Origin: Sipunculus nudus | Lineage: Eukaryota; Annelida; Sipuncula; Golfingiida; Sipunculidae | Reading direction: 5' to 3' | Assembly (NCBI GenBank): GCA_026874595.1 | Contig: CM049321.1 | Coordinates: forward strand, 6,756,979-6,820,978 | Length of the DNA stretch: 64,000 nt | Shown: one piece after another, positions 19,429 to 60,542 of the stretch | How the letters are laid out: each line of letters opens with the position of its first letter | How positions within the stretch are numbered: the stretch's first letter is position 1 | Program-made: the position numbers and the translations under genes | Notes under the pieces: generated by a model | The model's database searches: none | What the model was told of the DNA's origin: nothing | What the model saw: only the letters and a program-made list of their open reading frames with translations

Positions 19429-19594
19429 TTATGTGTGGAAACAGACGCCCAAATGGACGCTGGAAAGAGAGGAATGGTCAGAGGTCGACCAAAAATTAGG
19501 GTACAGCAGTTCACATGTGACCCGATTATAATTCCGAATTTCAAAAATTTCCGCCCAGTTGTTACGGAGTTCTCCGGAAACATAAGCGGTGGCG

Positions 19595-28500: not shown

Positions 28501-28518
28501 GTTATTAGGTCACAATTT

Positions 28519-37174: not shown

Positions 37175-40100
37175 GTGAGTTGATTTCTACTTTTATCTGG
37201 GTTTGCATATTATGTTGATTTACAAAGAACCAACAATTTGTGCTTGCTCAACATCTCTTGATGATGTTTGGGTTCCAGTTTGCTGACCCAGTCATTCTTT
37301 GGAAGACCTGTGCATTCTCCTCTGTTACACACATGGACCTGGCGATCTTTTTAGGATGCTAAGCCACAATGTCCATAAATTTTTGGTTAATATAGGGATT
37401 ATAAAATATTGAGTATTTAAACTAATGAGAGACATACTTTTGTCAGCGGCAATCTCCCAGAACAAACTGACCTCAGATTACATGCTAATTTGGTCACAGA
37501 TTGATTCTGTACCCCTAAACTAATGAGTGATTTCTTCTGGCTGAGCCAGGGCTTTCATTAAGACCTGTGATACAAGCAGCCCACTGGCAGGTGTGTGTTA
37601 AAAAACCCCTTGGACGGTCCACACTGACTAAGCTGGGCCTATCAGAGTTCAGTCACACACCAACAACACTCTTGTGCTGTTCCTCCAGGTCCTAAGCCAA
37701 ATGGATTATGAAAGATTTCAGTGAATGAAGTCTTTGATAAAATTTTAAATACTTCTACACAATGATTGATTTGGGGCAGAAAGAACCCTGTGAGACTCTG
37801 AAAATATAGAAAACTGCAAAAATACAGCCCCACTGATATAACAACAACCACAGTATACAGTTACTGAGTGGTGGAATCTTAGGGAGACCAGGAGAGCTGG
37901 ACTATATATTGATGTTTATACTGCTCTAAGTGATATCTCATTATGGATCTCAAGTTTTAATAAAAAAATTAGGTATAATAATCACATGTTAATTATTCAA
38001 CTACTCCAAATATATTAACCATAAATGTCATTAGTCTATTATTGTGACAACATTACTGTAAAATGAGAATATTTCTATGCAAGAGAAGCTTGTGCCATGT
38101 AAATCGACACTGCACAATACAATACATAGTTGATTTATTATAAATAAGGGTAAGGTTAGCCCCAAATTTTTGTGGTAGCATGTTGAAGGTGTATTTATAA
38201 CTTTGGTTTTTATATTTTCAGATGCGGTGAACAACCATCAGATTACAACTCAAGAACTCGAGTACATAATGTGTAAGTTTTGTAATTTTGTTAAGAACAC
38301 ACATTTTTTTTAATCTTTTAAAAATCAAGCAAAACAGTTTCCTACAAGGTTCTAAATATAGAAGACAAACGAGTGTGGAGCAAAAAAGATATTGTTTTTT
38401 TAGTGATCTTTCTTTGTCTGTCTGTTTGTCTGTCTGTGCATAAACCAGGCACAAATCTTAACTGCTGGACCTGGAATCTTCTTGACATCCAGGGAGGTCC
38501 ATGAAAAATCTCCTTGGAAACCTGGAATTAGGTCTCTGTTTCCCATATTCTTGGAGCTATAAGTCTCACAAGTACACCCAGAATAGTAAAAGAATTGAGG
38601 AAATCTCCATTATTTGAACAACTAATGCATTGCTCACCATGATTCTTTGCATGCATATTGGTCATGGAGTGTTTCATCAGTTCCTGCAGACTGGTGGTGC
38701 CCCCTGTATTTTATTCAAATTTTTATGCATTTTGAGATCTTTGAAGAAGCAGTGGTCTGTTAACCAGGCACATATTGTAACCACTTGACCTGGTTAAAAG
38801 ATATCCTTTGAAAAGTCTCTGTTACCCATATCCTCAGAGCTATGGGGCTCCTAAGTACCCCCAGAATTTTGAAATAAATTTGATACAAAAGCTCCAGTAT
38901 CTTAATAACTTATGCATGGATTGCCATGAATCTTGTCATAAATATTGACCATGACTCTCTTTGATTCATTGCATACATAATGAACATGGAGCATTCCATC
39001 AGTTCCTGCAGACTGTTGGCGCCACCTGTAATTTTTTCCAGTATACTTTCAAATAAATCCTTTGTTTAAGTTTTAGGACCATCACCTTTTTCCCTTGTAT
39101 TCAGCTGAGCATCATGGCCCATGGGCTGATTGTTAGAATTATTTATATCATTTACACAATTTTTATAATCTTTTTTATTAGCTCAGCTGACTATAAGTCA
39201 TCTGAGCTATATTAGTCGTGGTCCATTGTCCGTCAGTCCGTCTGTCCGGATGTCCGTCTGTAAGACTGGCACGTTTCGACACCATTGGACCTACAAATCT
39301 GAAATTTGGCAAACAGTTAGATGTCCACAAAACCTCCTACCAATGGGAAAATTGGGTCAATAGGACTTCATTCCTTCGAGATATTAAGGAAAAACCTTAA
39401 TTTTTTATTAGAAATCTATTTTCACACTTCAGGACTGCCTAATATCAAAACCACTCATCTGGTTTTCTTCATATATACCATAAATATTCCTCTATATAGG
39501 TCCTATATACATGCTATATATTAAGTCAGTATTATATAATTTAATAAAGTTATGGGCCCAAACATAATGGACTTTGTAAAAAAATCAGGAAGATATTTGG
39601 TCACTTAAGACCAAAAGTGTTAAAGGTAGGGACTTTTTTCCAGTAGTACAACTTTAATTAATCAAAATTTAATTGTATACCAAAAATTAGATCAAAATCT
39701 GTTAAATTTTTTTAAATATTGGCAAAAATATAAAATTTGTACCTTAAATTTTGCCCAACTTTGACCACGGCACATTTTTTCTTGTAAGTACTGTGGATTT
39801 AATTTTCACAGCATGTATACATAAGGATTTAATCTGTTAAAATCTGAAATTTGAAAATAGAAGCTGCAAAATTAGGCTAGTCATTGAATTTTTATTAGGC
39901 TCTTGTTGTATTCCCTTACATTGTCAAGCAGTCCACTTTGAGGACTGTAGGTCATTCAGTGCACATCTGTATGCTCCCCAGGCTGTTTGCATAATTTTAG
40001 ATGTCCTGAAAATCTCCTACCATACCGAAAATTGGGTCATTAGGACTTCGTTCCTTCGAGATATTAAGGATAAAAACTCTGTTTCCCATAAAAAAAAGCC

Positions 40101-43100
40101 ATTGTTACACTTCAAGGCTGCCTAATATCAAATCCACTGATCAGTTTTTGATCATATTTAGTATTCACATTCTTTCATACATTTTCTATGAACATACCAA
40201 AAATTAGGTCAGTATTGGGTATTATTTTGAAGTTATGGGCCAAAACATAATGCAATTTTTAAAACAAGTGACCCATGGGTCATGACGCTCAGCTGCCAAG
40301 CATGACCTGCGACATCATGGGCTGAGATTCACAACTTCCAGTCAAATTTTGAAAAACCAATTTGCCAATTTTTTAAAATTTTCTACGACAACAGAAATAT
40401 ATATCACCTATGTCTGGTTAAAACACAGTGAATTGATGGTCTGAGGAAAATGTATGATTGTTAAGGTATCCAGAACTATTCCCACAGCTTAGTTGATACC
40501 TGTCAGTCTCAAAAGGAAGACCACAAAGGGAAAAATAAGATCAAAATATATAGCAAAAATCAAGGAAATAATGCAAGAATTATTGAGAAACAGGTGCTTC
40601 TGTATGAATTTTTATTCAATACAAGCCAACTGTACTGCACTTTTATAAATGATGGTAATATTTATTAAGAATATTTGACCCAATCCTTTGCAAGATTACA
40701 TTAATATACGTCCGACTGCCTTCACTTTAACAATTCTTGAAATAATATGATCAAAAGGAATTTAAAGATGGTTGCCTGGTGGCCATATTGGACTTCTGAC
40801 AGGTCTGAAATCAGACAACAACCATTCTCTAAATCAGACCAAAATTGAAGGAAAATTACTGAAACTGCACTGAAAAAAGGATTTCTAAGGTGGCTAACTG
40901 GCAGACATAATGGATTTCTGACAAGTATGACATTTGATATCCCACATTCTCCAATAAGAGACCAAACTTGGGGCAAATTATCCAGTAATGAATGCCCAAA
41001 ATAATTCAAAAGGCATGTCCAGGCGCTCATATTAGATTTATAGATATGCAATTGTAAAAAGTGTAAGTCCAATATTTTTTATTATCACTCTGCTTTTCAA
41101 TGGGGTCAGCAGGGTAGGTAAACTGCCAAACCTGAAAGAAAAGAAATGTAGAAAGCATGACTAAGAGTCTTGAAATAAAACAAAAAGCCATCCTAAATCA
41201 AGGTACACATCCACCTTATGAGAACAAACACTTGCTTTTATATGTGGTGATACATATTAAAATATTCAGATATCTAGTAAACTAAGTTTATTGCTAGGAT
41301 TCCATAAAATAAACTGCAAAATGTTCCCATCATCTTATAAATCAGTAGCTAAACCTTAATACTATACTCTCATAGTCTTAATGCCTGGCTGAAGCATTCA
41401 GACAACAGTGTTTTTGTTATGAAGTAACAACGTACTTATCACTGAGCCTTATCACTTAATAGGCTGATATAAAAGGGAGTCATATGTCACCAGTGTCCCT
41501 CACAATTACAGCCACACAGGGAGATGTACCAGCTGGAGTGGGATGGTTATATATACAAGAAATATAGAGATGGTCTATAAAATAAGTAATTGTGAACACC
41601 CCTTGCCTATTACCTTGGCCTTTTGCCCACATATCAACTGGATTCTTTCTAAATGATGGGTAACTACTAACCACTTAAATCTGGTGTTATTACTTGGCAA
41701 CCAATGGGTGAATAACTTTGACCTGCAACCTTTAACCTGCTGACCAGCTGAACCCAAAATCAATAAGTTATTTATTCAAGCAAAAAGACCCATAAATATG
41801 AAGTTTGAGTCAAACTGAGTGATGCATAGATGTGGCATATGTGAAAGACTGAAGGTTTGGGTTGAACAGTTACACTTGAAATATGCTCACCAGCATTTAG
41901 AACAATTAAATATCGTGACCTTGACCTTTGACTTTTTCAATATCAATAGGCTTCTTCCCTTATTGGTAGGTAAGTCATATATGACAGATGGAAGGTACAG
42001 ATTGAAAAGTTTGCCTGAAAATGACTCCACGCAAGAAGTGGGTGCTATGAACTTGACCTTTGACCTCAAAATCAACAGGTCTTTTCCCCTGTTGGCAGAG
42101 AAACGATATCAGTGCTGGAAGGTTTGGAGTGAAAAGTCTAGCTTGAAATGTGTCCACAACCTTTTCAAAGAAGTGGATCCTGTGACCTTGACCTTTGACC
42201 TTGTGACCTCAAAATCTATAGGATCCTTCTCCAACTTAGTAGGTGAGCTATATGTGAAAGATCAAAGAATTGGGATGAAAGGGTTGGCTTAAAATGCATC
42301 CACAGGCTTTTCAAAGAAGAGGCTCCTGTGACCTTGAACTTTGACCTTTTGACCTAAAAAAAATTATGGTTCTTCCCCTGTTGGTAGGTGAGCTGTATGT
42401 GAAAGATGGAAGGTTTGGGATGAAAATTTTTTCTCAAAGAGTTATTTCTTGGGGGGTGCAAACACACCCCATAACTTTGAGAATATAGGTAGCAGTGACC
42501 TAATTTCAGGTTTGCAAGGAGATCTTTTTATAACCTCTAAGACTGCATAGGGTTCATGGCCCTAACCCCTAAGGTTATGATTTGTGCCCTGCTAACGGAC
42601 GGCCGGCCGGCCGGACGACGGACAAAGACCCATCGCTATAGCCCAGCATGACTGAAAGTCAGCTGAGCTAAAAATCAGAAAATATATTTACTCACCTAAC
42701 ATGAGAATTGCTGAACCTAGAGACTTTTTTTCAGGAATATAACTTTATTTAATCAAGATTCAATTGTTAACCCAAAATTAGATCTGAATTTTGCAAATTT
42801 TTCCAGTTATTAGCATAAATAAAAAATCAATACCTTAAATTTTGTCCAATTTTGGCACTGTTGATTTAATTTTCACAGCATATAAACATAAGGATTTAAT
42901 CTTTTAAAATCTGAAATTTCAAAGAAATTGATTGGAAAGAAAAGCTTTTATTCATGTTTTCATACACCATGTCAAGTGTTGTTTACATCTAGCCCACCTA
43001 GTAGTACAGCCTTCACTTGCATTATGTAACCCACCCCAGGCAGCTTGCCTTGGGTCAGCTTGGCTACTACCAGCAGGCTTCCCCTCTGCCCTGCACCCCC

Positions 43101-46100
43101 CCCCCCCACCAGATGGTGCATAAACTAGATGAATGTTATTATTTTCTGTATTTGATTCATTCTTATTCTAGGCTATGCTACATCTTAGATTTTGTATTGT
43201 ACCACCAGGGTTACAGTGATTAAAGTGTACATTTAATTGTGTCCACAAAGTGGTGTATTGCTATGAAAGTGTGGATGTTCATGAGATAAGTAATTCCTTA
43301 CTTCAGAAGAGTAAAAACTTCACCAGGTGTGAAATTGACTATTAATTCCAGTAATAAATTAAAACTCGGATAGTAATTAGCACAATGACATTGTTTGTCC
43401 CTCATTCAACCAACAGTGTGTATACTTTATTTGAAAAGATGTTTTATTTTATCAGATTCACTGAATCTTTTATTTTATTTTGGTGAATAATAAAATATAT
43501 GTGTATGCATAATATGACCCAATATGAGCTACACTCTGGATAAGTGATGATTGCAACTTTTGCAACAATTCTAATATTTTAACTTAGTTTGTTTTTTACT
43601 CTGTATATATAATGATTGCAACTTTTGCAACAATTCTAATATTTTAACTTATGGTTTCAGTTTTTTACTCTGTATATATAATGATTGCAACTTTTGCAAC
43701 AATTCTAATATTTTAACTTATATTTTTAGTTTTTTTTATTAAAAATTTATAAAACCTGTAAATAAAAAAATGATTCAGATAAAAACGTCTTAATGGAAAA
43801 AGTGGATATGCTTATATATAAACTTAAATGCATTATTCCCTTGAAAGTGAAATAAAGGTATTAGTCCATTCTGTCCACTTGCCTGTCCATCTGTAAATTT
43901 TCATATGCATCACAGTATCTGAAAACTTTTACTGTTTTTCTTCATGACAGTCTTGTCAGAGTATTAGTTTGCAATCATATTTTTAGAACTTTTCTATAAC
44001 CAAGTAGGAGGGCCCCTTTCCTCTTAGCTTTTCATATTCTTATATAAATGAAAAACGTTACAATAGAATATTTCTACATCCACCTTCGTGCTGCTCTAAC
44101 TTTTCCCTTCTCCTAACCCCATCCCAAAGTGGGCCTCAGTAAGCAAGAACAAAATGAATCAGATATATTCATACTTTAATATTTTGTATAATTATTCGTC
44201 CATAGGTACCTATGTACATGCCAGAAATTATGTCAATATTGTGTAATATGTAGACATAGTGGGCATCACAATAATGTACCTTGTCAAGACTAAAGAGATA
44301 TTGTGTCATTCAGTCACAAATTCATAAATCACTTCATCAGCATAGTTAATCATAACATCATATCTGTCAAATTGAAAGCTTGCAGACTACCATACACTTT
44401 AGATCCTTCAACAAATAGCCTTATCACTATTCTACTACTGCTTATTACTGGTGTCATTGCATTCATTTTTGCTCAAATATATCACAATTTTCAACCCCTC
44501 CTAAATAAATAAAAAATTAACCACTATATTTGACTCTATTAATCCATCAGTCAGGTAATTTTCATTTATCATTTACTCACATATTACATTACATTCCTTT
44601 ATAATAGCCCAACATGTCCAAGATATTCATAAGCTTTATTGACTCGATATAGTATCACAGTGGAGAAACATTTATAGTCCAATCACGATCAGCTGAGCAC
44701 CGTGACCCATGGGTCCCTTGTTACTCTTAGGTCCATTGCCTTTTTTGCCCTTATTGCGTGATTAAATTGTTTTAGTCCACATTTTTATATATTACAGAGT
44801 ACAATATATACTTATTGTAGCCGCCAAATCAAAGAATTGTGGATTCTTTTTTTTCTACATGGTTCAGCCAATGCCACTGTGTTAGTTTCCGGAGAATCCT
44901 CTGACACACTTGGACCAACATTTCCAAAACCCGGCATACGGTAGTTATTCACTCATGCACCTTTGTAGTTCTGCCTAACAAAGACTGGTGGTGCCACTGC
45001 CGTCCTTATCTGGCAGTATGAATCTGGGTGTCTTTTAATTCTAACAGCCCATATCTCAGGAGTGGTTCAATGTATTGAGCTGAAATGTTGCATATTTAAT
45101 CCATAGATCTTGGATCTTTCCATTTTGTAGTCATCTAGACTGGTGGTGTCCATCCATGTTATTGTGATCCATTTGTCTTAGTGATTGGTTCAACTTAATG
45201 GCCTGAAATTGTGCATGTCCATAGATCTTGCATGGATACCTCCATCTTACTGGTGGTACCATCCATGTGTTTGCTTTAGTTGAAAATTGCTCATATCTCA
45301 GGAGTTGGTTTAACGATTGGTCTGATATTTGGAATGTACATCCAACCTGGAAAGTTCTCACACACTAGACAGATGGCCCAACCTACCTTACTGTTTTCAA
45401 AGTATAAATAAATTAATGCTCTTTTCTCAGGAGTAATTTGCCGTATTGGCCTGAAATTGTGCATGTTGATAGACCTCAAATACCTCCAAGACTGGTGGTG
45501 CCATCTTTGATTGTTTTCATGCAGTGCCCATCCATATGTTTGCTTTGGGTGAATATTGCTCATGTCTCATGAGTGGTTCAATGTTTTGGTCCGAAATGTG
45601 GCATGTACATCCATTTTTGAGAGTTATCTTGTAAACTAGACAGGTGGCACCACCTACCTTACCATTTTCAAAGTCTAAATTAAAGCCCCTTTTTAAAGGG
45701 TGATTTGCTGTATTGGCCTGAAATTGTGCATGTCCATAGGTCTTTGATACCGGAATCTGCGGAATCTGCATCTGTTATTGAGTGCCATTCATCTATTTTT
45801 GCTTTGGGTAAATATCCCTCAAATCTGAGGAGTTGATGGATGCATTAGCCAAAAATTTTGGCATGTTTATCCGTCTTGTTGTAGACCAGAAGGGTGGTGC
45901 CACCTGCTGTTCTGTACAGAAAACATTAATGCACTTTTACTAAGTGGTAAATTGCTGTCTCAGCCTGAAACCTTGTATGGTGTATCCATCTGTTAATATA
46001 TTTTTGGAGAAAATTGCACATGAATGAGGTGTTTATTTGGCATCACTGGTGTCAAAATTGGGAGTAATGTCATGTCAGGAACATTTTATACCTTAATCTA

Positions 46101-49100
46101 TACCATGCCTCTATGATATGGCTGATACACATAGTCGCTTGTTGACTACCTGTTATCAAGTTATATTTTGTTTATGCTCATTTGTAAAATATATTACAGT
46201 GTTAATGTTTTGCTCCATTTATTTCGGTTAAGATATATAATGTGCATTATTATATACAATTTATTCTATATTTTATAGGGTTTCCTATATTCCCAGTTTG
46301 TATATTAAATGCATATTACTTTCATATAGTTGAAATACTGATAATTTTATAAATATTTGATCATGAGAGGCTACTGCATCTTGCCTATAGTCCATGAGAG
46401 TGTACATGCAGAATTTGTCTTAAATTTATACATTAAGTATTTGATTATCACCAAGTAGCAAGGCCATTTCCCCTTAGCTTTTCAAATGCTAATATATTAA
46501 AAAAATAGAAATAAGTGCATATTGAATTTGCTTATTTTATACAAGGTTCAGCTGAGCCCTGTGACCTATGGGTAACTTGTTGAAATTAAGATATTAAATA
46601 TGATGAAATGCAAGGATTTTGTGTAATTCGACAGACAAGAAATTATGATACTTAAAGACACAATTAATATTTTTCAATTAAAATTTTAGGTTGTAGATCC
46701 TAAGCTCTTTATATTGCAGATTTATAAATACTAATTAAATTTATAAGAGTTATACAAATGTGATAAAACAGTCTGATATAACACAAGTGCTCAGGTCACT
46801 TCTTAGCTCATAAAGTGAGGAATATATAACCAGTAGCTGGGGATCTCTGCAACAGAAGAGTTGAAAACCATTTGCATTTTCTCTATGAAATTAATAAGAT
46901 ATAAGTTAAATATATATTCGGAAATTATTTTGACTATAATGAAAGTTATTATTCAAACTGACATTATGGATACCTGATTGGATAAACCACATGATGGGCT
47001 TACCAGTGAGTGTACAGTGTCCTGCAGAGTGGAATTCTAATAGATTCATTTTTATATGCCAGCCTAATGATGGAAGTATTATGGGATACCAACCATCGAT
47101 CCATTAAATCTTAGTGTCCCAACAATAACTTAACGAGGTTTCAATGGATTTTCATCAAAGTCACCATGACTACTTACCAACAGATTATCTCACCCCAGTT
47201 CAATCATAGGCAAAATCCAAAAATTTAATAATAGGGTATAAGGGTCACTATGATTACCTAACAAGAATACAAACAATTTCAATAAAACTCGATCATCAGA
47301 AATGTTAATCATTAAATATCTCACCTAAGTTTGATATCCAGTGAAATCCATGCATCTTTAATGAGGTCACAGGTAACCTCACTTTGGAGGCACCTTGGTG
47401 AATCAAACAAAAAATCTATGGATATTGATGAAACACATTATAAATATTTTTACCAATAGAGTTTCTTAACTCATTAAATTCTTAGCAGATTTCAAGCATA
47501 TTTAATTAGGACAGAGGTTACCAGGCTGTTTTGCACAAGCCACATTCTTTGTGGTGTTGCTGTGATAACTCACAAAGAACATGAAGGATTTTGATAAAAC
47601 TTGTTAAAAAAGTTAATAATATTTATTGCCTATAAGTTTGATTTCCAGCGAAATCCATACATAATGACTTCAGAGGTCACTGCACTTTTGAGGCACATTG
47701 GTGACTAAACAGATATTCTATGGATTTTCATGAAACTCATTATACATATTTTACCAACAGAGTTTCTCACAAGAATTATATTCTCATCAAAATTCACACA
47801 TATTTAATGAGGTCAGAGCTCACTGCACTTTGGAGGCATCGTGGTGACTTAAAAAAACCTGAGGATTTTCATGAAACTCATACATATTAACCAATAGACT
47901 TTCTCACCTTAATTACATTTTAATCGAAATATTTAATGAGGTCCATGGTCAACAGATACAAGACAGATGTAGTCATGTTTGCAGTAGTCATACCCTGACA
48001 GGAGGCACTAAAAGCAATTTTTCAAATATGTGGAATTAACTTTAATAACTCCTGAATGATCAGCTGGAGTGATTTTCTTAGTGAAAATAAAATTGCTTGA
48101 GTAAATTATTCAGATACCAAAAATTTGCACAAATCTTTGCCAAGGCATTACCCTTACTATGGGATATTCAGAAATGCAGCATTTTCCTTTTTATAAAATT
48201 CTCAAGATCCAGATTTGCTATAGATCACTTCCACAATTTTATCAGTTGCTGCTGGTATCATTGCTGAGATATCCTGAAAATTTCATCAAAATCTGTTCAT
48301 AACATTTTGAGTAATGTTGCTAACAGACAATCCAGTGTCTGCAAAAGCATAACCACCCCCCCCCCCCCCTTGGAGGTAAATATAAATACCAGCCAGATTT
48401 CAGCTGCCAAACAGCTGAGTATATTTTTAGCTCAGCTGACTAAAAGTCATCTGAGCTATAGCAATCATTCTTTGTCTCTTGTCCGTCCAGTCATCCGGCT
48501 GACCTTTAACAGGGCACAAATCCTAACAACTGGACCAGGAATCTTCTAACCTGGCATCCATGGGAAACCTGAAATTTGGTCTCTGTTACCCATATTCTAT
48601 ATTCATATTCCATAAGCTATGGGGCTCCGAATTACCCCCCAGAATAATAAAAATTTGATACAAAAGCTCAAGTATCTGAACAACTAATGCATTGATCACC
48701 TTGATTTTAGCATGGATATTTATCTTGGAGTGTTTCATCAGTTTCTGCAGACTGGTGGCGCGACCTGTATTTTTTCAATTTTTACAATTTTTTTACTCTA
48801 TTTTTGAGACCCCTTAAGATGCGGTCATCTGTTAACAGGGCACAAATCTTAACAATTAGACCTAGAATCTTAATTTTCTCTTGTCATGCAGAGAGGCCCA
48901 TGAAAAGTCTCCTTGGAAACCTGAAATTAGGTCACTGTTACCAATAACCTCTGAGCTATGGGGCTCTGAAGTACCCCCAGAATAATATGAAAATTTGATA
49001 CAAAACCTGAAGTAACTGAACAACTATTGCATTGATCACCATGATTTTTTGCATGGATATTGATGATGGAATGTTTTATCAGTTTTCTGCAGTCTGGTGG

Positions 49101-52100
49101 TGCCATCTGTATTTTTTACAATTTTTACAAATTTTTTTCTCTATTTTTGAGACCTCTTAAGATGCGTTCATCTGTTAACAGGGCACAAATCGTAACGACT
49201 GGACCTAGAAACTTCGTACTCTCTTGACATGCAGGGAGGCCCATAAAAGTCTCTTTGGAAACCTGAAATTAGGTCTTTGTTACCCATAACCTCTGAGCTA
49301 TGGGGCTCCGAAGTACCCCCCAGAATAATGGAAAATTTAATACAAAAGCTGAAGTAACTGAACAACTTTTGTATTGATCACCATGATTTTTTGCACAGAT
49401 ATTGATCATGGAATGTTTCATCAGTTACTGCAGTCTGGTGGCGCCACCTGTATTTTTTTTATTTTTACGAATTTTTTTTCTGTTTTTGAGACCTCTTAAG
49501 ATGTGGTCATCTGTTAACAGGGCACAAATTTGTAACGACTGGACCTAGAATCTTCTCTCTTGATATGCAGGGAGGCCCATGAAAAGCCTCTGTTGAAATG
49601 TGAAATGAGGTCTCTGTTACCCATATTCTCGGAGCTATAGGGCTAATAATACCCCTCAGAATAATTCAAAATTTGATACAAATGCTCTAGTATCTGAATA
49701 ACTAATGTATTGATGACCATGATATTTTGCATGCTTACTTATCATGGACCATTTCTTCAGTTCCTGTGCCACCTGTATTTTTTTCAAATTTTCACCCATT
49801 TTTTAGCCCAGCTGACTTTAAGTCATCTGAGCTATAGGGATCAACTTTTGTCCGTTGTCCGTCCGGCCGTCCGGGCGTCTGTCCGTTAACAGGGCACAAA
49901 TCGTAACCGCTAGAACTGGAATCTTCTTACTTGACATCCTGGGAGGTCTATGGAAATTCTCCTTGTAAACCTGAAATAAGGTCACTGTGACCTATATTCT
50001 TTGAGCTATGGGGTTCCGAAGTACCCCCCAGAATATTGGAAAATTTGATACAAAAGCTCAAGTATCTGAACAACTAATGCATTGATCATCATGATTTTTT
50101 GCATGGATATTGATCATGGAGTGTTTCATCAGTTTCTGCAGACTGGTGGCGCCACCTGTATTTTTTTTATTTTTACCAATATTTTTCTCTATTTTTGAGA
50201 CCTCTTAAGATGCGGCCATCTGTTAACAGGGCACAAATTGTAACGACTACACCTAGAATCTTCTCTCTTGACATGCAGGGAGGCCCATAAAAAGTCTCTT
50301 TGGAAACCTGAAATTAGGTCTCTGTTACCCATAACCTTTGAGCTATGTGGCTCCGAAATACCCCCCAGAATAATGGAAAACTTGATACAAAAGCTCAAGT
50401 ATCTAAACAACTATTGCAGTGATCACCATGATTCTTTGCATGGATATTGATCATGGAATGTGTCATCAGTTTCTGCAGTATAGTGGGGCCACCTGTATTT
50501 TTTTTATTTTTACGAATTTTTTTCTCTATTTTTGAGACCTCATAAGATGCGGTCATCTGTTAACATGGCACGAATCTTAACAACTGGACCTAGAATCTTC
50601 TCTCTTGACATGCTGAGAGGCCCATGAAAAGTCTTCTTAAAAACTTGAAATTAGGTCTCTGTTACCCATAACTTCTGAGCTATGGGGCTCCGAAGTACCC
50701 CCTCAGAATAATGGAAAATTTGATACAAAAGCTCAAGTATCTGAACAATTATTATATTGATCACCATGATTCTTTGCATGGATATTGATCATGAAATGTT
50801 TCATCAGTTTCTTCATTCTGGTGGCGCCACCTGTATTTTTTCAATTTTTAGCTCAGCTGACTGAAAGTCATCTGAGCTATAGTGGTCACTTTTTGTCCGT
50901 CGTCCGTCCGGCCACCAGGTGTCTGTCTGTTAACAGGGCACAAATCGTAACCGCTAGACCTGGAATCTTCTTACTTGACATCCTGGGAGGGCTATGGAAA
51001 TTCTCCTTGTAAACCTGAAATTAGGTCACTGTGACCTATATTCTTTGAGCTATGGGGTTCTGAAGTACCCCCACAGAATAATGCAAAATTTAATACAAAA
51101 GCTCAAGTATCTGAACAACTAATGCATTAATCAGCATGATTCTTTGCATGGATATTGATCATGGAGTGTTTCATCAATTTCTGGAGATTGGTGGCGCCAT
51201 CTTTATTTTTTTTCTCTACTTTTGTGATCTTTAAACATTTGGTCATCTGTAAACAGGGCACAAATCATAATGACTGGACCTAAAATCTTCTGTCCTCACC
51301 TCCAGGGAAGCCCATAAAAGGTCTACATGGAAACCCGAAATAAGGTCCCTGTTACCCATATTCTGTGAGCTATGGGGCTCTGAAGTACCCCCCAGAATAA
51401 AGATTTGGTCATATATTAACAGGGCACAAATCATAATGACTGGACCTAGAATCTTCTTTCTTGTCTTGCAGGGAGGCCTTTGGAAAGTTTCTTTGGAAAT
51501 CTGAAATTAGGTCTCTGGTACCCATATCCTTCATGCTCTGGGGCTCCGAAGTACTCCCCAGAATAAAGATTTGGTCATCTGTTAACAGAGCACAAATTAT
51601 AATGACTTGACCTAGAAATTTATTTTTTGACATGCTGGGAGACCCCTGAAAAGTCATCTTGTAAACCTTGAAAATAGGTGTCTGTTACCCATATCCTTCA
51701 TGCTACAGAGCTCCATAGTACCCCAATGAATATTTGATGATTTTATTTAAGAGGTCAAGCTTTGAAAAAGTATTTCATTCAAATTTGACATTCAGATGAT
51801 AAAATTACTTTTGTCAATGTCTTCCTGGTCAGCTGAGCGTCATGACCCCTGGGTCACTTGTTTTCTCTATATTTTAGACCTTCAAATAAAGTCTCATCTG
51901 TAAACAAGGCACAAATCATAACCTCTGGACCTAGAATCTTTATACTAAAAATCTAGTGAGGTCATTGAAAAATATTCTTGGAAACCTGAAATAAGGTCTC
52001 TGTGACCTATATCCTCCAAGCTATGAGGCTTGAAAGTACCCCAAAGAATAATTAAAAATTTGATATAAACACTCCAGTATCTGAATAACTAATGCATTGA

Positions 52101-55100
52101 TCACCATGATTCTTTGCATGCTTACTGATCATGGACTGTTTCTTCAGTTCCTGCAGACTGGTGGCACCGCCTGTTTTTTTTTAATTTTCAAGCATGTTTT
52201 TTCTATTTTTGAGACAATTCAAATATAGGGTCATCTGTTAACAGAGCACAAATCATCACTGTTTGACCTAGAATCTTCTAACTTATCACCTAAAGAGGTC
52301 AATGAAAAGTCTTCATCCATACCTGAAATTAGGTCTCTGTTACCCATATCCTTCGAGCTATTTGGCTTGTAAGTACCCCCAGAATAATTAAAAATGTGAT
52401 ACAGAAACTTCTGTATTTGAATATCTAATTCATTAATTGCTATAATTCTTTGCCTGCTTTTTGATCATGGAGTGCTTCATCAGTTCCTGTAGACTAATGG
52501 CCCAACCTAAAATTTGAAACCCTCAATTGTTCAAATGGAGGAGTTTGAAAACCAGTGACCTCGGCCTTCATATTCAATGTAAAATCTGCCGAAATGTAAA
52601 ATTTTTGTGAACCCCATAAGTTTTGAAGTATTCCATATTTTTTCCTCAAATTTGGTACACATATTGTTCCTGCCAAGTTCTTGGAAAATTTCGAAAACCC
52701 TTGATAATGACCATCATCTTCAATGTCAAATCTGCCAAAATGTAACTTTTTTTAACCCCATAACTTTTGAAGTATTAAACATTTTGTCCTCAAATTTTGG
52801 TACAGCAATTGTTCCTACTAAAATCAAGGAGAAGTTAAAAAAAACCAGTGTCCTTGACCTTCATCTTCAAGATCAAATCTGCAGAAATATGACATTTTTG
52901 TGAACCCCATAACTTTTGAAGTATTCCACATTTTGTCCTCAAGTTTGGTACACCAGTTGTTCCTACCATGTTCTTGGACAAGTTCAAAACCTGGTGACCT
53001 TGACATTTCCAATCAATGTAAAAATTCTTCAATGTTGAAATGAAAAATTTTTATGAACACCATATCTTTTGTAGTATTTCCAATTTTGTCCTAAAATTTT
53101 GTACAACAATTGTTACTACCAAGCTGTCAGACAAGTTTGAAACCTGGTGACCTTGATCAGGATCTTCAAGGTCAAATCAGTGGAATTATAGTTATTGTCT
53201 TGTGGACAAGATAACTTTTGAAGTGATGAATATTTTCCTCAAAAATTTGAAACACTCCTTGTTCCTACCAAAATCTTGGATGTGATAGAAATCCTGTGAC
53301 CTTGAACCTTGATCTTAAAGGTCAAACATGCATTTCTAGGCTTATTGTGACCCCAATAACTTTGCAAGTACTGAAGATTTTACTTCAAATTTGACACACC
53401 AGTTTTTCTGCCAAAATGACAGAGTACAAAAAGCAGTGACCTTGACCTTCAAAGTCTAATCTGCTGAGATCTATATTCATTGTTTTGAGATATTGCATAT
53501 TTTACCCCTAATGTTTTGGGATGAAGCATAGGGATGAGACATAACAGGGCACAAATCATGAGCGTTGGACCTAGAATCTTCTAACTGATATCATTAGAGT
53601 TCCATGAAAAATATCCTTGGAAAATTGAAATTAGGTCATGGTTAACTATATTTTGTAAATTAGGGGAGAAAACATGAGCACCAAGTGAGTCAGGTGGGGC
53701 ACAAATTGTATCCATTTGGCCTAAAATTCTCATACATGACTTTCAGAGAGGTCCCTAAAAATCTCCTTGGAAACCGGATATGTCACTCTGACCCATTTTC
53801 TAAAAGCTGTGTGAAAGAACTTGATTTTAACACTAAATTAGTCAGGAGGGCATAAATAGTAGCAGCTGCATGTAGATTAAGGTCACTGTAACCTATATCT
53901 AAGGGTTATTGGCAAAATGCATGATTTTGACTAAAGGAGTCTTTTTGCCCATTGTTCAAGGCTCCTTGAATTCAGCTTAGTGTCATGGCCCATGGGCCAC
54001 TTGTCTTTTTCTAGATCCTGTATTCTGCTACTTTTCAGCTGGGTACTGTGTCTCATGGGGAGTTTTTTTGACAAACTGGAGCATCTTGATCCATGGGTAT
54101 TTTGTTTATTGCAGTTTGCTTTATAGCCCCTTCTTTTCCCATCATTTGATTTTTGTATTCTTCTTTGCAGGTCTCAATGCAGAAAATCTTCAAAAATATC
54201 TAATACAAGCGTACAATCCAAACAAAAAGAAAATTTACAGGCCCCACCTCAGACCAGCCAACTGGCCCACCACCGTGACTTGGCGCTCAATCAGCACACT
54301 CAGTAAGTCAACTTTTTTAATTTAACGGCTTTGGTCAAGTACAAGGGTCTGTACATCATTAAAAGTACTTCAACTTTTGACAAGTGCAAGTGCTGAATTT
54401 TTATGCTTACCGTACTTAAGTACAAGTTCAAGTACAGGAGTCTGTACTTGAATACAGGCACAAGCACTTTTATCATTTGTTTCCTTCAGACAGAGAAAAA
54501 CACTTAAAATGTTCTGAATTTGCTGCCAAGGATGTGCACACCTGTCATTTATATTGATTTCCCAATTGCCAAGCACAGATATACATGTCATTAATTGATC
54601 AGCAGTTTTCAGCAAGAATTCTCATAAATCAATAAATTCCTTATAGATGAGTTTAGTAGTCCATTTATAAAAATAGTCTCCCAGGCAGAATCCCCATCAT
54701 GCTTTACCATAGGCAAGCCTAACTTATAATTTTTAGCTCAGTTGACTGAAAGTCAACTGAGCTATAGCGATCAACCTTTGTCTGTTGTCTGTCCAGCTGT
54801 TAACAGGGCACAAATTGTAACCACTAGACCTGGAATCTTCTCACTTGACATCCAGGAAGGTCCATGAAAATCTCCTTTGAAACCCAGAATTAAGTCTGTG
54901 TTACCCATATCCTCCAAGATACAGGGCACTAAACTTCTCCCCCAGAATAATTAAAATTTGATACAAAAGCTCCAGTATCTGAATGATTAATGCATTGATC
55001 ACTATGACTCTTCGCATGCATATTGATCACGGAGTGTTTCATCAGTTCCTGAAGGCTTGTGGTGCCACCTGTATTATAATTTAATTTTTTTTCTCTATAT

Positions 55101-57506
55101 ATTTGAGACCTTCAAATAAAGCCCAATCTGTTAACTGGGCACAAATTGTAACTGCTGAACCTAGAATCTTCATCCTTTACATCTAGGAAGGTCCATGAAA
55201 AATATCCTTGGAAACTTGAAATCACGCCTTGGCTAAGCTTGGCTTATCTTCCACTCAGCCCTGCACCCCCCCAGCATGATGCATACACTTGGTGAATGTT
55301 ATAACCTTTCTGTATTTGATTCATTCTAATTTGCATTTTGAATTTTTATATTCTGTCACAGTGGGTAACAATGACTTAAGTGCATAGTTATATTTGTCAA
55401 CAAAGTTGTGTATTTCTGTAAAAGCGTAGATGAGGAATTCCTTATTTCAAAGGAGTAAAAACTTTTAATTCTTTTCAAAGGTGTGAAATTGAATATTAAT
55501 TCAATTATTAAATTATAGTTGAGATAATAATCAGCATAATTATAATGTTTCCTCTCATCCAACCAACAGTGTCTATACCAGATTTAGACCGGGAATTTTT
55601 TAAAATCAGATTTACTGAATCTTTTATTCTAGTTAATAAAATTAGGCATGTACTGAAAATTCCAATGAACAATACTTTTTTTTTTAATGATGATTCAAGG
55701 AATAATCTTAAAGATGCCATGTTGTGGCATTTTAAGCTATTTTATCTTATAAAAATAATTTTCTTTTAAATTCAGTTTAAACATTTTGTGAATTAAAAAA
55801 TTATACAGTTATATGTGTTTGCATAATTTGACATGATGTAAGCCAAACTATGGATGAATAATGATGCAAATTACAATTTGAATGAACTTATATTTTCAGA
55901 TGTTATTCATTGCATATTTTAAAAAAATTGTTAAATTAAAAAAAATAATCATACCTCCATTTGATATTATTTTAGATTTTTACCTAAAAGGTGAACTTCA
56001 GCTGAGCACAGTGACCCATGGGTCCTTTGTTAACTTTAAGGTCAATTTAGCTGAGCACAGAGCCCATGGGTCCCTTGTTTATTAGTTTTAAATCAATCTT
56101 TGTTGCATCATCAGCAGTTCATTATATGGTTATACTTAGGTGTTCCTAAATGAATATTTGGTTATGGATGAAGTGTAAGGACCAGCTTGTAAAATATCCG
56201 AGCTACCTATCACCCCTCTTAATTATAAATGGACTAACCCATTCATAAACTAGACCTTCATGCTGATGTACGTGGGCTCCTGAGGAAAATGCAAAAAAAT
56301 CAACTTCTTTGGTGCTTGAATGATCCAGAAGTAGGCCCATGTCTGGTCAGCTTTTGATTAAGTCATTTTGTTTTGCTAAGGAGCTCATCATTAATTGACA
56401 CAAAATGATATTTTATTAGCCACCGTGGTTATTCTAACTGCCTGTTTATCATGTTTAAGATAACCAATACACTGGCAGTATATGTTTGGCTAAGAAAAAT
56501 TAACCAAATTGTAGTATCTGGCTACAAATTAATACAGGTGGTCTTCCTTTTTCTGTATTCCACAGAGAGAAGCGAGTCGGTCAAGGTGGTGGCAAAAATG
56601 ATTGGAGATGGTCTGAGTGTGGGGCACCAGAACCAGCAACAGGTGCAGGCGCAGCTCACAGGCCAGCTGGCCACAGCCACAGGTCAGGTCCAGCAACTTC
56701 AGGCCAGAGTTCAGGCTTTAAATACTAAAGTAAATACCCTTGAAAAGCAGCTGGACCTGGCCAATAGCCAGCTGGCCAAGGTCCGTAAGGACCACACTAC
56801 AACATCAGAGGAGCTGCGCCAGACCAGAGACCGCAATGACGAGTTACAGAGTGAGTTAGATGCGGTCCTGGTCGAAGTGAGTGACCGCCAGGATTCATTC
56901 CCCCAGGAAATCATAGATTCTGTCGAAGCATATCGTTCGGTCCAGCGGGGTCAGAAGAGGAGCAGTGTCTTTGACACTGACTCTGAGGACTCTCACCCCG
57001 CAAAGCGCCTCAGGGTGGGTGTTCATGGGTCTCATAGAGATTCTTGGGAAGTTGCCAGAAGCCCTGTCCCTTCAGTCCATGTGCAGCCCCCTTCTCCCCC
57101 CTCTACCCAGGCCTCACACTCCACCCCATTGCCCTCCCTTTCTTCATGGACTATCATAAACACGCCCTCCGTGACATCCACCAGTCCCCGCCCCTCCCCT
57201 AGCACCTCCCTAACCCCTGCCCATCAACAACCCTCCACTTCCCCGACCTCCGCCCCGGCCTCAACCCATCTTCATCCATCCACCGCCTCCTCCCCAGCCT
57301 CAGTCCGTTCATGTCCTTCCCCCTCCCCCTCTTCACCGTCATCACCACCCACTACCTCCTCCCCAGTCCCGTCCACTTCCTCTGGTGTCCAGTCAGGACC
57401 AGCAGGCCCAGAGTCTAAAAATAAAACACCAAAAAAGGTATTAAAAGTAAGATCAGTGATTAATAAATGGAAAGACATTTTGACAGAAAAATTTGGTAAT
57501 GGGTAA
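37138..57506 (+). CDS. four-exon gene for an unrecognised 386-residue coiled-coil, Ser/Pro-rich, probably nuclear protein
   Basis: Spliced model: 37138-37174, 38222-38272, 54171-54302, 56566-57506. Every junction has cag (or ttcag) acceptors and gtgagt/gtaagt donors, and all three introns are phase 1, which makes the model self-consistent. Residues 1-73 form a compact N-terminus (MTTVAQLRGAVENAVNN; later IYRPHLRPANWPTTVTW). About 95-185 is Gln-rich and heptad-like, a likely coiled coil. About 212-224 has an acidic patch followed by HPAKRLRV, resembling a nuclear localisation signal. About 235-355 is Ser/Pro/Thr-rich and low complexity. The tail (358-386) is basic, ending KWKDILTEKFGNG. The ATG context (taaccatga) is good. 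No enzyme domain or known family is recognised; function unknown. Exon 4 is strikingly more GC-rich than its surroundings. Upstream exons (including cassette 3) could extend the 5' end. Confidence 0.6.
38222..38272 (+). CDS. exon 2 of the 37-57 kb gene
   Basis: 51 nt between tatattttcag and gtaagttt, phase 1 at both ends, encoding NAVNNHQITTQELEYIM. It is unique sequence amid repeats. Confidence 0.6.
38455..39133 (+). mobile_element. Helentron-like core units and 3' end
   Basis: Two units of about 335 bp (ctggacctggaatcttctt ... gactggtggtgccccctg), ending in a terminus TCAGCTGAGC (39101-39110), atcatggcccatgggc and tgtt. Lies in intron 2. Confidence 0.65.
40266..42670 (-). mobile_element. 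2.4-kb Helentron-like (HINE) element, minus strand, with verified ends
   Basis: On the minus strand it begins (T)AGCTCAGCTGACT, forming a hairpin with AGTCATGCTGGGCTA, continues with gtccgtcgtccggccggcc and 'agggcacaaatcataac', includes a tandem core at 41880-42460, and ends GCAGCTGAGCGTCATGACCC-atgggtcacttg. It interrupts a repeat whose uninterrupted copy is at 39570-39600: left flank ...aaaacataatgcaatttttaaaa plus right flank aaatcagaaaatat rejoin to match. Insertion is within an A/T run, with no target duplication evident. No protein is encoded. Confidence 0.75.
41880..42460 (-). repeat. tandem core of about 140-145 bp inside the HINE, four units
   Basis: Plus-strand units contain 'gtgaccttgacctttgacc', 'cttcccctgttggtaggt' and 'gtgaaagatggaaggtttggg'. 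Two perfect TGACCTTTGACCT (42054-42066, 42189-42201) are optimal DR1 nuclear-receptor sites. Confidence 0.8.
43548..43735 (+). repeat. triplicated segment of about 64-70 bp
   Basis: 'gattgcaacttttgcaacaa' followed by 'ttctaatattttaactta' occurs three times, starting near 43549, 43614 and 43683, with 'ttttttactctgtatatata' between. Confidence 0.85.
44722..46581 (+). mobile_element. GGTGGYGCCACC repeat array ending in a Helentron-like 3' terminus
   Basis: About five diverged units with 'ctcaggagtggttcaatg', 'gcctgaaattgtgcatgtcc' and 'actggtggtgccacc' (44980-45970), followed by AT-rich DNA and the end ttcagctgagc (46547-46557), gtgacctatgggtaacttgtt. No gene. Confidence 0.6.
46582..47040. other. 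AT-rich intronic DNA
   Basis: Nothing recognised. Confidence 0.4.
47041..47960 (+). repeat. tandem core of about 145 bp, five to six units
   Basis: Same unit as at 34.4 and 35.6 kb (aggtcacaggtaac 47364, aggacagaggttac about 47510, cttcagaggtcac about 47666, aggtcagagctcac 47811; 'tttcatgaaactcat', 'ttctcatcaaaattcacac'). Confidence 0.7.
47961..48427. other. intronic DNA with a poly-C run
   Basis: Poly-C run at about 48355-48369; otherwise nothing recognised. Confidence 0.4.
48428..51861 (+). mobile_element. Helentron-like cluster: three 5' heads, about eleven core units, one 3' end
   Basis: Heads (hairpin TAGCYCAGCTGACT / AGTCATCTGAGCTA) at 48428, 49804 and 50849. Core units marked by 'gttaacagggcacaaatc' recur near 48508, 48832, 49172, 49510, 49884, 50221, 50560, 50928, 51249, 51411 and 51580: about 320-340 bp, stretching to about 370 where a head intervenes and shortening to about 165 near the end. 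Most full units end in a GGTGGCGCCACCTG-type palindrome. A single terminus (TCAGCTGAGC 51829, catgacccctgggtcacttgtt) closes the cluster. Non-coding; lies in intron 2. Confidence 0.75.
51862..52500 (+). repeat. two further core units of about 340 bp
   Basis: Units at about 51897 and 52237 with the same landmarks (aaggcacaaatc, cctagaatctt, 'gtatctgaataactaatgcattgatc'), beyond the 3' end at 51861. They belong to a second element or a diverged continuation. Confidence 0.65.
52500..53490 (+). repeat. tandem array of about 143-151 bp, six to seven units
   Basis: 'ccccataacttttgaagta' or variants at about 52612, 52755, 52906, 53057, 53208 and 53354, with 'gttcctaccaagttcttgg' and 'gtgaccttgaccttcat'. 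A distinct core type in the same family. Confidence 0.75.
53491..54003 (+). mobile_element. diverged Helentron-like units with 3' end
   Basis: Two short units ('gggcacaaatcatgag', 'cttggaaaattgaaattaggtca'), then the end ttcagcttagtgtcatggcc, catgggccacttgt. Confidence 0.6.
54171..54302 (+). CDS. exon 3 of the 37-57 kb gene
   Basis: 132 nt between ttctttgcag and gtaagtca, phase 1 at both ends; encodes LNAENLQKYLIQAYNPN and then a Pro/Trp-containing stretch. The open frame and splice sites agree exactly. Confidence 0.65.
54734..56031 (+). mobile_element. Helentron-like element, about 1.3 kb, in intron 3
   Basis: Begins with a perfect hairpin, TAGCTCAGTTGACT (54734-54747), gaa loop, AGTCAACTGAGCTA (54751-54764), then 'gtctgttgtctgtccagc' and 'gttaacagggcacaaat', one and a half core units, a segment (55220-55900) paralogous to 43020-43900, and ends tcagctgagcacagtgaccc / atgggtcctttgtt at 56031. 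Non-coding; spliced out with intron 3. Confidence 0.75.
56048..56078 (+). mobile_element. extra copy of the 3' terminus
   Basis: 'tagctgagcacagagcccat' plus gggtcccttgttt directly follows the previous element end, so two 3' ends stand about 50 bp apart. Confidence 0.6.
56566..57506 (+). CDS. exon 4 (last) of the 37-57 kb gene
   Basis: Follows ctgtattccacag; A from exon 3 plus AG makes Lys74, then 312 codons to TAA (57504-57506). Encodes the coiled coil, KRLRV motif, Ser/Pro tail and basic end. Its sustained open frame and GC-rich third positions set it apart from neighbouring AT-rich DNA. Confidence 0.75.
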
Positions 57507-58960
57507 AAATATTTGAATTTATATGTAAACACTGTTATTTTTGGCATTGTTTATTTTAGATATATAAAATTTGATTAAAAACCTAAAGAACATTAGAGAA
57601 TTGTTCAAACTTTCTCCTTTGGCATTTTATTCAAAGAAAATTGCTTTCTCTTTTCTCTTTGGCAAAATTTATAAAAGAAATTGCCTTAATTAATTACTCT
57701 TTGGCACAAAATAAAAATTAAAACCAAATATTTCCTATTGGAACCTGCATGGGCAAGATCTTGTCCTTGCTAGACACCAGATTCATTGGTAATTTCCCAA
57801 GGTGTTTTTTTTTCAAAATGTACATGTACTTTCTGTTTCTGCATCAAAATTGGGATAACCTGGGGAGGGAGGGCTAAGGGGCTGGGTCAAACATATATTT
57901 TGGAAAAAGTGTACATGTGCTGCTTTGGTTTTTCTAAATGGGGGGAGGGTGGGCCCCATTTCATCCATCTGTCATTACCATATCATTCATGTCTCATTTT
58001 CATTTCAGTCATGCATGTAGTTAGTTTTTAGTAGTTTTATTGTGTGCATCATAGCTGGAATTAACTTAATTTGTTTAATAGTTTTCACTTCATTTGGCAT
58101 TTATTTTGGTGGCAATATGATATACATGGATTTTTTATAGTTTTCAGAAAATCAGGGAAATTCATATTATTCCTTAACTAAAATTATGCCACACTTTACA
58201 GTTAAACATGTGGTGGGGACTAAGTGAGCCAATAGTCCCAGATTTTGGTATAATTTTATTGTACCTTAATTTACATGTTTATTGTACCCTTAAATATTTA
58301 TTGTACCTTTAAATTCCAGCTATGATGCATGTTCCTGGCAGTCACTCACTTATATATAAGGGTGCAACAAATAATAATTCAGAAAATTTTATTGAATTAA
58401 ATGTCAATTCTATTCCCAATTTTGTCTTTTGATCTCTATATATTTATAAATGTTTATCTCAGTGATCCCACTCACATTTTGGAACAGAAAGGAAATTTTG
58501 ATTATTGCAGAGGAGGTGGTCCCTGTATAATAATTATTCTGGTGTACAAATGGAATACACCATAAATATACAAATTACATAGATCAAGCTTATGAATTGA
58601 TCTTTATTTTGCCATAAAATGATATCCAATGGCACTCCTGAAAACTGCCATTAAAACGTCATTAAATTTGGGTCAAAACACAGAATTTTTTATTAATATA
58701 TTTGGATCCCTATGTGTGTATATATATAATTATATATTTGTTGCACTTTTATATGCATCTGTTGCTGATTCATAAATATATATATTATTTGTATAAATCA
58801 TATAATTGTTAATATATATAACATTGACACATTATTTGTAAGGAGGTAACTTAAGCTTGCCATGCACTGTTTAATTTACTGGTTTAACATTCCATAGTAA
58901 ATCAATTGCTCAATAGATTAGACTTCTGAACCATATTTCCTTGATCAGATGCCCAGGGCA
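57507..58960 (+). other. probable 3' UTR and downstream DNA
   Basis: After the TAA, AT-rich sequence with a possible polyadenylation signal AATAAA near 57709 (cacaaaataaaaatt). Small local repeats: 'ctctttggcaaaat' variants at 57615-57705 and 'tttattgtacc' three times at 58255-58310. No other gene seen. Confidence 0.4.
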
Positions 58961-58969
58961 TTAATTTTT

Positions 58970-60542
58970 TAAACTGCGCTGACTGAAAGTCCTCTGAGCT
59001 ATAGTGAACACTCTGTCTGCCGTCCTTCTGTCTGTCTGTAGGTCCATCTGTCCATTAACAGGGCACAAATCATAATTGCTGGACCCAGAAAATTCTAACA
59101 GAAAACCTATGGAGGTCCATAAAAAATCTCCTATGAAAATCTCATTGGAAACCTGAAATGAGGTCACCATGACCTATATCTTCAAGCTACTGGGTTCAAA
59201 AGTACCTTCCAGAATAATTTAAAATTTGATAAAAAACTCCAGTATATATGAATAACCAGTGCATTGATTGCCGTTATTCTTTCCATGCATATTGATCATG
59301 GAGTCTTTCCTTAAGACAGGTGGCACCATCATTTTTATACAAAATTTTCTCTATTTTTGAGACCTTTGGATGAAGCAGTCTGTCTGTTAACAGAGCACAA
59401 ATCATAAGTTTGACCTAGAAACTTCTGTACATCAGCTGAGGTCCTAGGCCAGTCTCCATAGATATCTGAAATTAGGTCATGATGACCAACATTTTGTGAA
59501 GTAGAGGTTTAAAACATGATTTTGAGCATGCTGGCAGTCAGAAGGGGCATGGCACAAATTGTATCTTCTAGGCCGAGAATCTTCTTAGATTACACCAATG
59601 GAGCACCAAAAAAAATCTTATTGGAAACATGAAATTAGGTCATGGTGACCTTTTATTTGTAAACTATGGGTAAAAAACATGATTTTCAGTAACCCTAAAT
59701 ATTCAGGGACATCTTGGGCAATCTCCATTGAAACCTGAAATAAGGTCATGGTGATCCATATTTTGTGTACTACGCAGCCAGAAATCTTGGGTAATCTCCA
59801 TGGAAACCTAAAATTAGGTCACAGTGACCTATATCACTGGCCAAAAACATTTTAAGCACCCAGACAATACTTAAAACTTTACTGTTGGACTTAGAATCTT
59901 TCGGCTGGACATGTTATCATGGAACTACTGGACATGTAACGCTCCCAAGGCAGCAGAAATCTGGCACTTATAAAGAAGCTACTGATTTTCCCCCGGCCTG
60001 CTTTGACCATTTATGTTGCACTAAAACACCAGGTGGTGGGCCTGTCTGCTGAAAAAATCTGCTGATGTGACTAGCACCCAACCAAATGCCAGTCAACAAC
60101 ACTGGACAGGCATCAGGCTCTGCCCAGAAACCACATGTGAGGCCATTCTCTCTGAGCCTGTGGCCTGTTCCCACAGTTGCCTGGGTGAAGAGCGGTCACT
60201 CAAAACAAAACGAACAACATTGGCTCCATGTATTTCTCCCTTGGCTGGTAAACTGTTTTGTCTTCCATCACAGGGTCTCATTTGATTGGACCAAAATACA
60301 GTGCTCCCCTCTGGTGTAGCAATTCAGGATACGAGGTTCAAAACAAACAGGCTTTCGATATAGGTAGTAGGCCTATAGGTAAAGGGCTGTGTAAAGAGCT
60401 TACGGACATGTTGGTTTGAAGAACTTTAATTGCTGCAGCTGATTTGGGATACCACCTACAACATTTGGCATTCAGATGATAAAATTCCTTTTTGTGAATG
60501 TCCTCCTAGTCTGCTGAGTGTCATGACCCAAGGGTCACTTGT
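58970..60542 (+). mobile_element. Helentron-like element, about 1.57 kb
   Basis: Diverged head (gctgactgaaagtcctctgagctatagt, 58978-59005), 'gtccatctgtccattaacag', core units with 'acctgaaatgaggtcaccatgacc' and 'caggtggcacca', and 3' end tctgctgagtgtcatgaccc, aagggtcacttgtt at 60542. The last 85 bp (tttggcattcagatgataaa onward) match the 3' end at 51.8 kb. A GC-richer, non-matching patch at about 59935-60440 may be a further nested insertion. Confidence 0.65.

Follow-up and report, generated by a model that had tools for sequence, protein, structure and literature searches.

Strand orientation of an abundant Helentron-like repeat family relative to host genes in Sipunculus nudus

In a stretch of 64,000 nucleotides of the Sipunculus nudus genome (GenBank contig CM049321.1, here C16, positions 6,756,979 to 6,820,978; below, the window), a repeat with a hairpin "head" at its 5' end and a palindrome-bearing "tail" at its 3' end recurs many times, mostly on one strand. 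A preliminary description had assigned these copies to a Helentron-like family of the HINE/Pearl type and had suggested searching the whole genome with both ends. What kind of element is this, and what decides the strand on which it lies? A genome-wide pattern search of the 1.43-Gb host genome gave 22,384 copies of the exact 31-nt head hairpin (11,006 on one strand and 11,378 on the other) and 4,662 copies of the exact 33-nt tail (2,309 and 2,353), while reversed control patterns of head and tail gave no match genome-wide. The repeat family is genuine and very abundant. Below, C1, C2, C7 and C11 are, like C16, contigs of the host genome, and L-numbers (L003, L010, L012 and so on) are stretches fetched from it.

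Orientation of intronic copies

The orientation of the family relative to genes was followed in 23 intron stretches (220,414 bases) from 20 genes with myosin (PF00063) or kinesin (PF00225) exons. The gene strand was taken from the exons, and flanking exons were presumed to belong to one gene from their order in the profile. These stretches were searched with head and tail profiles built solely from window copies, using cut-offs of 50 bits for heads (next best match 27) and 30 bits for tails (next best 14), which were set at the score gaps after the scores had been seen. The search produced 13 head and 16 tail matches, 27 of them in the sense orientation and two antisense. Twelve of the 20 genes contained matches; eleven were purely sense and one was mixed (two-sided sign test on 11/11, P = 0.001). 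Genes on both strands contributed (e.g. minus strand, L014, L016, L018 and L020; plus strand, L010, L021, L022, L024, L026 and L035). On C2, two convergent genes lie 92-94 kb apart, and the orientation of the family follows each of them: the plus-strand myosin gene carries a plus head and a plus tail (L035) and the minus-strand kinesin gene carries minus tails (L016). Among the sampled genes, the family is nearly always in sense with its host gene, and this is the finding of main interest.

Both antisense matches are the head and the tail of a single element in L012, an intron that also holds a sense tail. The joined flanks of this element match DNA in L020, which is sense in L020 but antisense in L012, indicating that the element entered a repeat that was already antisense. 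When the first 21 stretches, all read in the gene-sense direction, were aligned against each other, comparisons between genes gave 648 same-strand and 208 opposite-strand alignments; the former include 75 between the tandem repeats of L008 and L017, which do not belong to the Helentron-like family, and 200 of the latter involve L012 (the antisense element or an adjoining relic). The intron count leaves out one antisense head-like match in L027 (8 mismatches, noise level), as well as matches below the cut-offs, which were opposite-strand hairpin readings, more antisense matches in the L012 element and weaker sense matches. Exact ends, presumably the younger ones, were found ten times in the sampled introns compared to 4.18 expected from the genome mean (P = 0.011), an excess that may partly reflect the choice of long introns, and all ten were in sense.

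Possible causes of the sense bias

The reading that we favour, with a probability of about one half, is that the sense bias arises when elements insert into the coding strand of genes while transcription leaves it single-stranded. A Rep/helicase encoded elsewhere would move the elements as single-stranded DNA and recognise both ends, namely the hairpin of the head and, in the tail, the inverted repeat together with the palindrome; it would join the element strand between T residues within an oligo-T tract. During transcription of a gene, its coding (non-template) strand would be transiently single-stranded, as an R-loop or a transcription bubble. Joining of the top strand of the element into this coding strand would lead sense copies to accumulate in genes and gene-sized orientation domains to arise. 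We infer that targeting by Rep-driven single-strand transfer, and not selection, causes the bias. The broader proposal is made more tentatively, at slightly less than even odds: a eukaryotic rolling-circle transposon would enter the single-stranded coding strand, and its tens of thousands of copies would record the germ-line transcribed strand and mark ancestral transcription units.

The main rival is selection. Insertion would then be blind to the strand, and antisense intron copies would be purged on account of their polyadenylation signals or of antisense transcripts pairing with sense copies in the pre-mRNA. Reviews, in the parts available, do ascribe the orientation bias of intronic transposons to effects on expression (PMC9099904, PMC10030826), and polyadenylation-type hexamers were commoner in antisense in five of nine element stretches, equal in two and rarer in two, some of these stretches possibly not being single elements. 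However, the bias quoted in these reviews for L1, long terminal repeat (LTR) and Alu elements in introns is the opposite one, antisense, and a bias of 27 in 29 was judged strong for selection. Exact ends, probably the younger copies, were moreover entirely sense and in excess in introns; this lack of depletion argues against the removal of half of all insertions. We consider selection a less likely cause of the bias than insertion into the coding strand.

Another possibility would be a matter of target supply, the coding strands of introns being richer in oligo-T tracts. The TA skew was indeed positive in 19 of 23 stretches, but coding-strand runs of at least four T outnumbered those of A by only 1,419 to 1,259 in masked intron DNA. 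This 1.13-fold excess is quantitatively inadequate, and the explanation, which we hold to be very improbable, was rejected.

Orientation was also followed along C1. The first 100 exact heads on this contig begin with a run in which 57 of 58 are minus, from 96 kb to 1.147 Mb, followed by nine plus heads; in this run (C1:96419-1146478, about 1.05 Mb, at the contig end) the head density is about 3.5 times the mean. After collapsing heads less than 1 kb apart, the 96 remaining heads formed 9 strand runs compared to 26.3 expected, the minimum in 100,000 shuffles being 12. The first 100 exact tails (C1:0.19-18.8 Mb) formed 32 runs compared to 50.7 expected, with 8 of 100,000 shuffles as low. Pairs of tails lay on the same strand in 13 of 14 cases when less than 20 kb apart; the figures were 18 of 23 for distances of 20-50 kb, 23 of 32 for 50-100 kb, 42 of 74 for 100-200 kb and 97 of 162 for 200-500 kb, with about half of the pairs agreeing at greater distance. 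Adjacent features within 8 kb were on the same strand in 85 cases and on opposite strands in two, partly as head and tail of one element.

Exact heads, exact tails and a further 100 heads of one subtype (77 of which, within C1:0-18.8 Mb, were used, some being already in the first head list) were merged into 178 units. Between 3 and 18.8 Mb, these units agreed in 7 of 8 pairs at 8-20 kb, 26 of 35 at 20-50 kb, 26 of 46 at 50-100 kb and 46 of 86 at 100-200 kb, the shortest class being biased by the unit rule, which joins same-strand features within 8 kb. The 107 units outside the first 3 Mb formed 42 runs compared to 53.1 expected (332 of 20,000 shuffles as low). Orientation coherence decays at gene scale, the 1-Mb run that opens C1 being the exception. 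To judge from the irregular spacing of the heads in this run, a tandem duplication of large units is an unlikely origin for it.

The C1 run bears on another explanation, in which the direction of the replication fork sets the orientation through entry into the lagging-strand template, as in bacterial IS200/IS605 (PMC5371812, in the part available), and the gene strand merely correlates with it. The one-strand run is directed towards the end of the contig, as could be the case for forks close to a chromosome end, and a rule based on forks alone was our first reading of it. This rule was weakened by the gene-scale decay, coherence being nearly gone by 50-100 kb beyond the first 3 Mb, and by the intron data: in 11 of 12 genes, which include genes of either strand, the orientation fits that of the gene, and it changes from one to the other of the convergent C2 genes. 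Fork direction as the determinant appears improbable to us, though less so for the start of C1.

The copies might instead owe their common orientation to each other, new ones entering the plus-strand oligo-T linkers of older ones, inheriting their orientation and enlarging local clusters. Such self-nesting, or local duplication, does occur: the window element that starts at 50849 is inserted in the core linker of a different copy, exact head pairs lie 232-258 bp apart, and the older repeat that harbours the sole antisense intron element (L012) is antisense as well. However, self-nesting cannot choose the strand of a gene; it does not predict that copies should agree with the gene strand in 11 of 12 genes that are unlinked, or that separate elements tens of kb apart should agree with each other. 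As the general cause it seems still less probable than fork direction.

Several observations weigh against insertion into the transcribed coding strand as the source of the bias. The sample is small, and its 20 motor-protein genes were chosen for long introns, not at random. The comparison with gene strand covers intronic copies, in genes delimited by exon order, and copies nested in older ones may inherit their orientation and inflate the counts per match. The minus-head run on C1 exceeds a normal gene length. Other repeats may show some bias too: seven other groups of intron repeats, chosen after the fact, split 2:1 (B), 2:1 (D), 2:1 (a tRNA-like short interspersed element, SINE), 1:1, 4:0 (A), 3:0 (C) and 2:0 (the L008/L017 tandem repeat), or 16:4 in sum by majority strand, and where a Helentron feature lies within 20 kb of the satellite-like repeat C, the two have the same orientation in 5 of 6 cases (closest feature taken). 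The orientation rule may thus extend to other repeats, perhaps other HINEs.

Among the repeats common to the sampled introns, no dense control family was found. The tRNA-like SINE agrees with a Helentron feature in 1 of 4 cases within 50 kb (sparse data), and repeat B, with 367 copies and equally sparse, in 1 of 2. The SINE was dropped as an orientation control, being too sparse by either of two patterns. No weight is given to a Fisher test that set 27:2 against control copies at 7:4 (P = 0.04); it omitted the one-strand groups (4:0, 3:0 and 2:0), with which the control becomes 16:4. The SINE itself lies at L010:1787-2205 (gene-sense coordinates) and in L014 and L022, with 670 exact copies and 2,184 by the looser pattern. 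In the window, a 141-bp tandem repeat at 34412-34860 carries the group C motif CATATTTAATGAGGTCAGAGGTCACC (1,011 exact copies) and seems co-oriented with the Helentron-like family.

Elements of the window, target site and class

The head 14-mer TAGCTCAGCTGACT has 28 matches in the window at up to three mismatches, second arms of hairpins included, compared to 3.6 expected, and none of 100 shuffles reached this number. Scanning for the whole head (31 nt, at most 8 of 28 fixed positions mismatched; no match in two shuffled windows) revealed nine plus-strand heads and one minus-strand head; an additional tenth plus head has a 1-nt spacer (33095-33123). Eight whole tails, seven plus and one minus, were found at up to five mismatches, and degenerate tails also occur at 54087 and 56047. 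The inverted match of the tail, TCAGCTGAGC, corresponds in reverse complement to GCTCAGCTGA, which is part of the head. Folded as DNA, the head forms a strong hairpin (-10.2 kcal/mol, z -5.5). In the two tails that were folded, the palindrome stem is in the centroid, with z values (-0.2 and -0.8) that are not unusual. The features are:

28519-28549, plus: head, 2 mismatches, immediately following a tandem array of 93-bp units
31986-32016, plus: head, 2 mismatches
33095-33123, plus: head with 1-nt spacer, from the TAGCTCAGCTGACT scan
36026-36056, plus: head relic, 5 mismatches
39101-39132, plus: tail relic, 5 mismatches
39179-39209, plus: head hairpin, exact consensus, from the head scans and the DNA fold given above
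40264-40296, minus: tail of the minus-strand element, 1 mismatch, TTTT on its 3' side
40265-42670, minus: minus-strand element; joined flanks match unfilled copies, at best 85% over 116 columns
42640-42670, minus: head of the minus-strand element, second arm damaged, 7 mismatches in an ungapped scan
44689-44720, plus: tail, 1 mismatch
46548-46579, plus: tail, 2 mismatches
48428-48458, plus: head hairpin, exact, from the whole-head scan
48615-50850, plus: tandem core, a 337-bp unit repeated about 6.5 times
49804-49834, plus: head inside the tandem core, 1 mismatch
50849-50879, plus: head, exact; with the tail at 51829 it makes a 1.0-kb element in the oligo-T linker of another core
51829-51860, plus: tail, 1 mismatch
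53972-54003, plus: tail, 4 mismatches
54734-54764, plus: head, 2 mismatches
55998-56029, plus: tail, 2 mismatches; a degenerate second tail is next to it, at 56047
58971-59001, plus: head relic, 5 mismatches
60510-60541, plus: tail, 3 mismatches

The head hairpin and the tail module given in the preliminary description occur far above chance, and one tail, at 40269, had to be reassigned. The palindrome at this position is strand-symmetric, and the TCAGCTGAGC that accompanies it is found on the minus strand. This tail therefore belongs with the minus head that ends at 42670, and the two delimit a reverse element. This element would be nested in a plus element; the tail at 44689-44720 possibly ends the element that begins at 39179. 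The array that precedes the head at 28519 (27238-28528; 13.9 copies of 93 bp, 94% matches) ends at this head and is open in one frame for 393 codons. It is perhaps a satellite expansion of a core.

Target bases were counted in the window and in the intron stretches, at 21 heads with at most six mismatches and at 24 tails. Immediately before the head there was a T in 21 of 21 cases, and the three bases further out were T in 16, 18 and 20 of 21; CTTG at the tail end was followed by T in 23 of 24 cases and by a second T in 21 of 24. Flanks joined in silico across the elements (14 queries, some sharing a tail) matched other DNA across the junction in six cases and gave no match across it in eight. 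For the 50849-51860 element, the joined flanks matched further copies of the core (L012:5135-5253, 82% in an alignment of 120 columns that contains one gap); for the minus-strand element, the matches included L010:6679-6566. The match obtained for L035 was short. No target-site duplication was seen at the unfilled sites, where a duplicated T would be invisible. From the T-flanked ends and the joined-flank matches, insertion takes place into oligo-T, without duplication except possibly of the T itself.

The inverted repeat stands at the 5' end of the element, with its partner inward of the 3' palindrome; the interior carries tandem repeats or microsatellite (the 337-bp core and a GTCC-rich stretch after heads), and the target is T-rich, with TT at the junction. 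Together with the duplication-free unfilled sites, this is the architecture of HINE/Helentron elements. The same anatomy, cores and target, without visible duplication, argue against a miniature inverted-repeat transposable element (MITE) moved by a DDE transposase, and the copies compared did not show the symmetric terminal inverted repeats with target duplications that, according to the preliminary description, would have spoken against its proposal. Canonical Helitrons (5' TC, 3' CTRR, insertion between A and T) were rejected, the ends here being TAGCTC...CTTG between T and T. The ends fit Helitron2, which has asymmetric terminal repeats, a palindrome at either end and a Rep/helicase that lacks an endonuclease, and which is a possible assignment. 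Assignment to non-autonomous rolling-circle elements of the HINE/Helentron kind, ordinary in kind and with a putative autonomous partner, is partly supported: the anatomy proposed in the preliminary description agrees with it, and no autonomous element with the same ends was obtained from the five loci examined.

The host genome contains at least 143 Helitron_like_N matches. One full 15.7-kb locus and the 5' flanks of four others, five of the 143 listed, showed no matching head, leaving the partner with the same termini suggested by the preliminary description without a candidate among them. Stretches L003-L006 represent one Helentron-like family with long frames, carrying Helitron_like_N, OTU and DUF6570 domains (Pfam was run on L003-L005); the OTU domain has been linked to Helentrons (PMC4067079, part available). 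L003 (C7) and L004 (C11) are 99.7% identical over the 3.6 kb compared, from which this Rep family was probably recently active. It was rejected as the partner, the C11 copy lacking TAGCTCAG ends.

Other features were noted in passing. Positions 1-20000 of the window contain a direct duplication of about 9.4 kb, in which tandem arrays and frames of long interspersed elements recur at an offset of 9387-9388 bp (e.g. 2354-3349 and 11741-12736). Both copies have a TIR-like frame (plus strand; weak Pfam matches below cut-off) and a reverse-transcriptase frame (minus strand; over cut-off in the first copy, which was scanned), and the first copy also has an LRR-like frame (weak match). At C2:44848559-44854198, one gene has several similar myosin-head exons in tandem (profile about 109-153). 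Comparable tandem exon copies are known from the alternatively spliced myosin heavy chain of invertebrates.

Comparison with known systems

A near-complete sense bias in genes would point to DNA made single-stranded by transcription as the target of Helitron-type elements. If so, the question of strand choice could be tested with existing genomes and R-loop maps, and the family would offer a readout of germ-line transcription in non-model animals from sequence alone. A literature search, which was not exhaustive, revealed no paper linking Helitrons to fork direction, lagging-strand bias, sense-oriented insertion, or R-loops and transcription.

The HINE/Helentron architecture is itself known from mites, flies and oyster. 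Cg_HINE of the Pacific oyster, as described in the available part of its report (PMC7492417), shares with the present family a 5' subterminal inverted repeat with a complementary inverted repeat, a GTCC-type microsatellite, a satellite-like tandem core, a 3' subterminal repeat with palindrome, and a T-rich target without duplication, a likeness by description. Cg_HINE is said there to insert in both orientations without preference for chromosomal segments, and the part available does not mention gene strand. HINE-Mo and DINE-1, in the corresponding part of PMC4067079, resemble the present elements in their asymmetric subterminal repeats, the palindrome near the 3' end, the T-rich or TT target, the duplication-free unfilled sites and the high copy number. 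The spacing differs: the 3' subterminal repeat is 23-32 nt from the CTTG end here, compared to about 38-60 nt in the mite families, and the palindrome 4 nt, compared to 8-35 nt. Autonomous partners are known for HINE-Mo and DINE-1, but not for the family described here. As to strand choice, IS200/IS605 elements transpose as single strands, with an orientation that depends on which host strand is single-stranded (PMC5371812), and the same may hold for the present family, no sequence relation being claimed. In IS200/IS605, according to the part of that account available, the strand is set by replication, whereas the evidence obtained here points to transcription.

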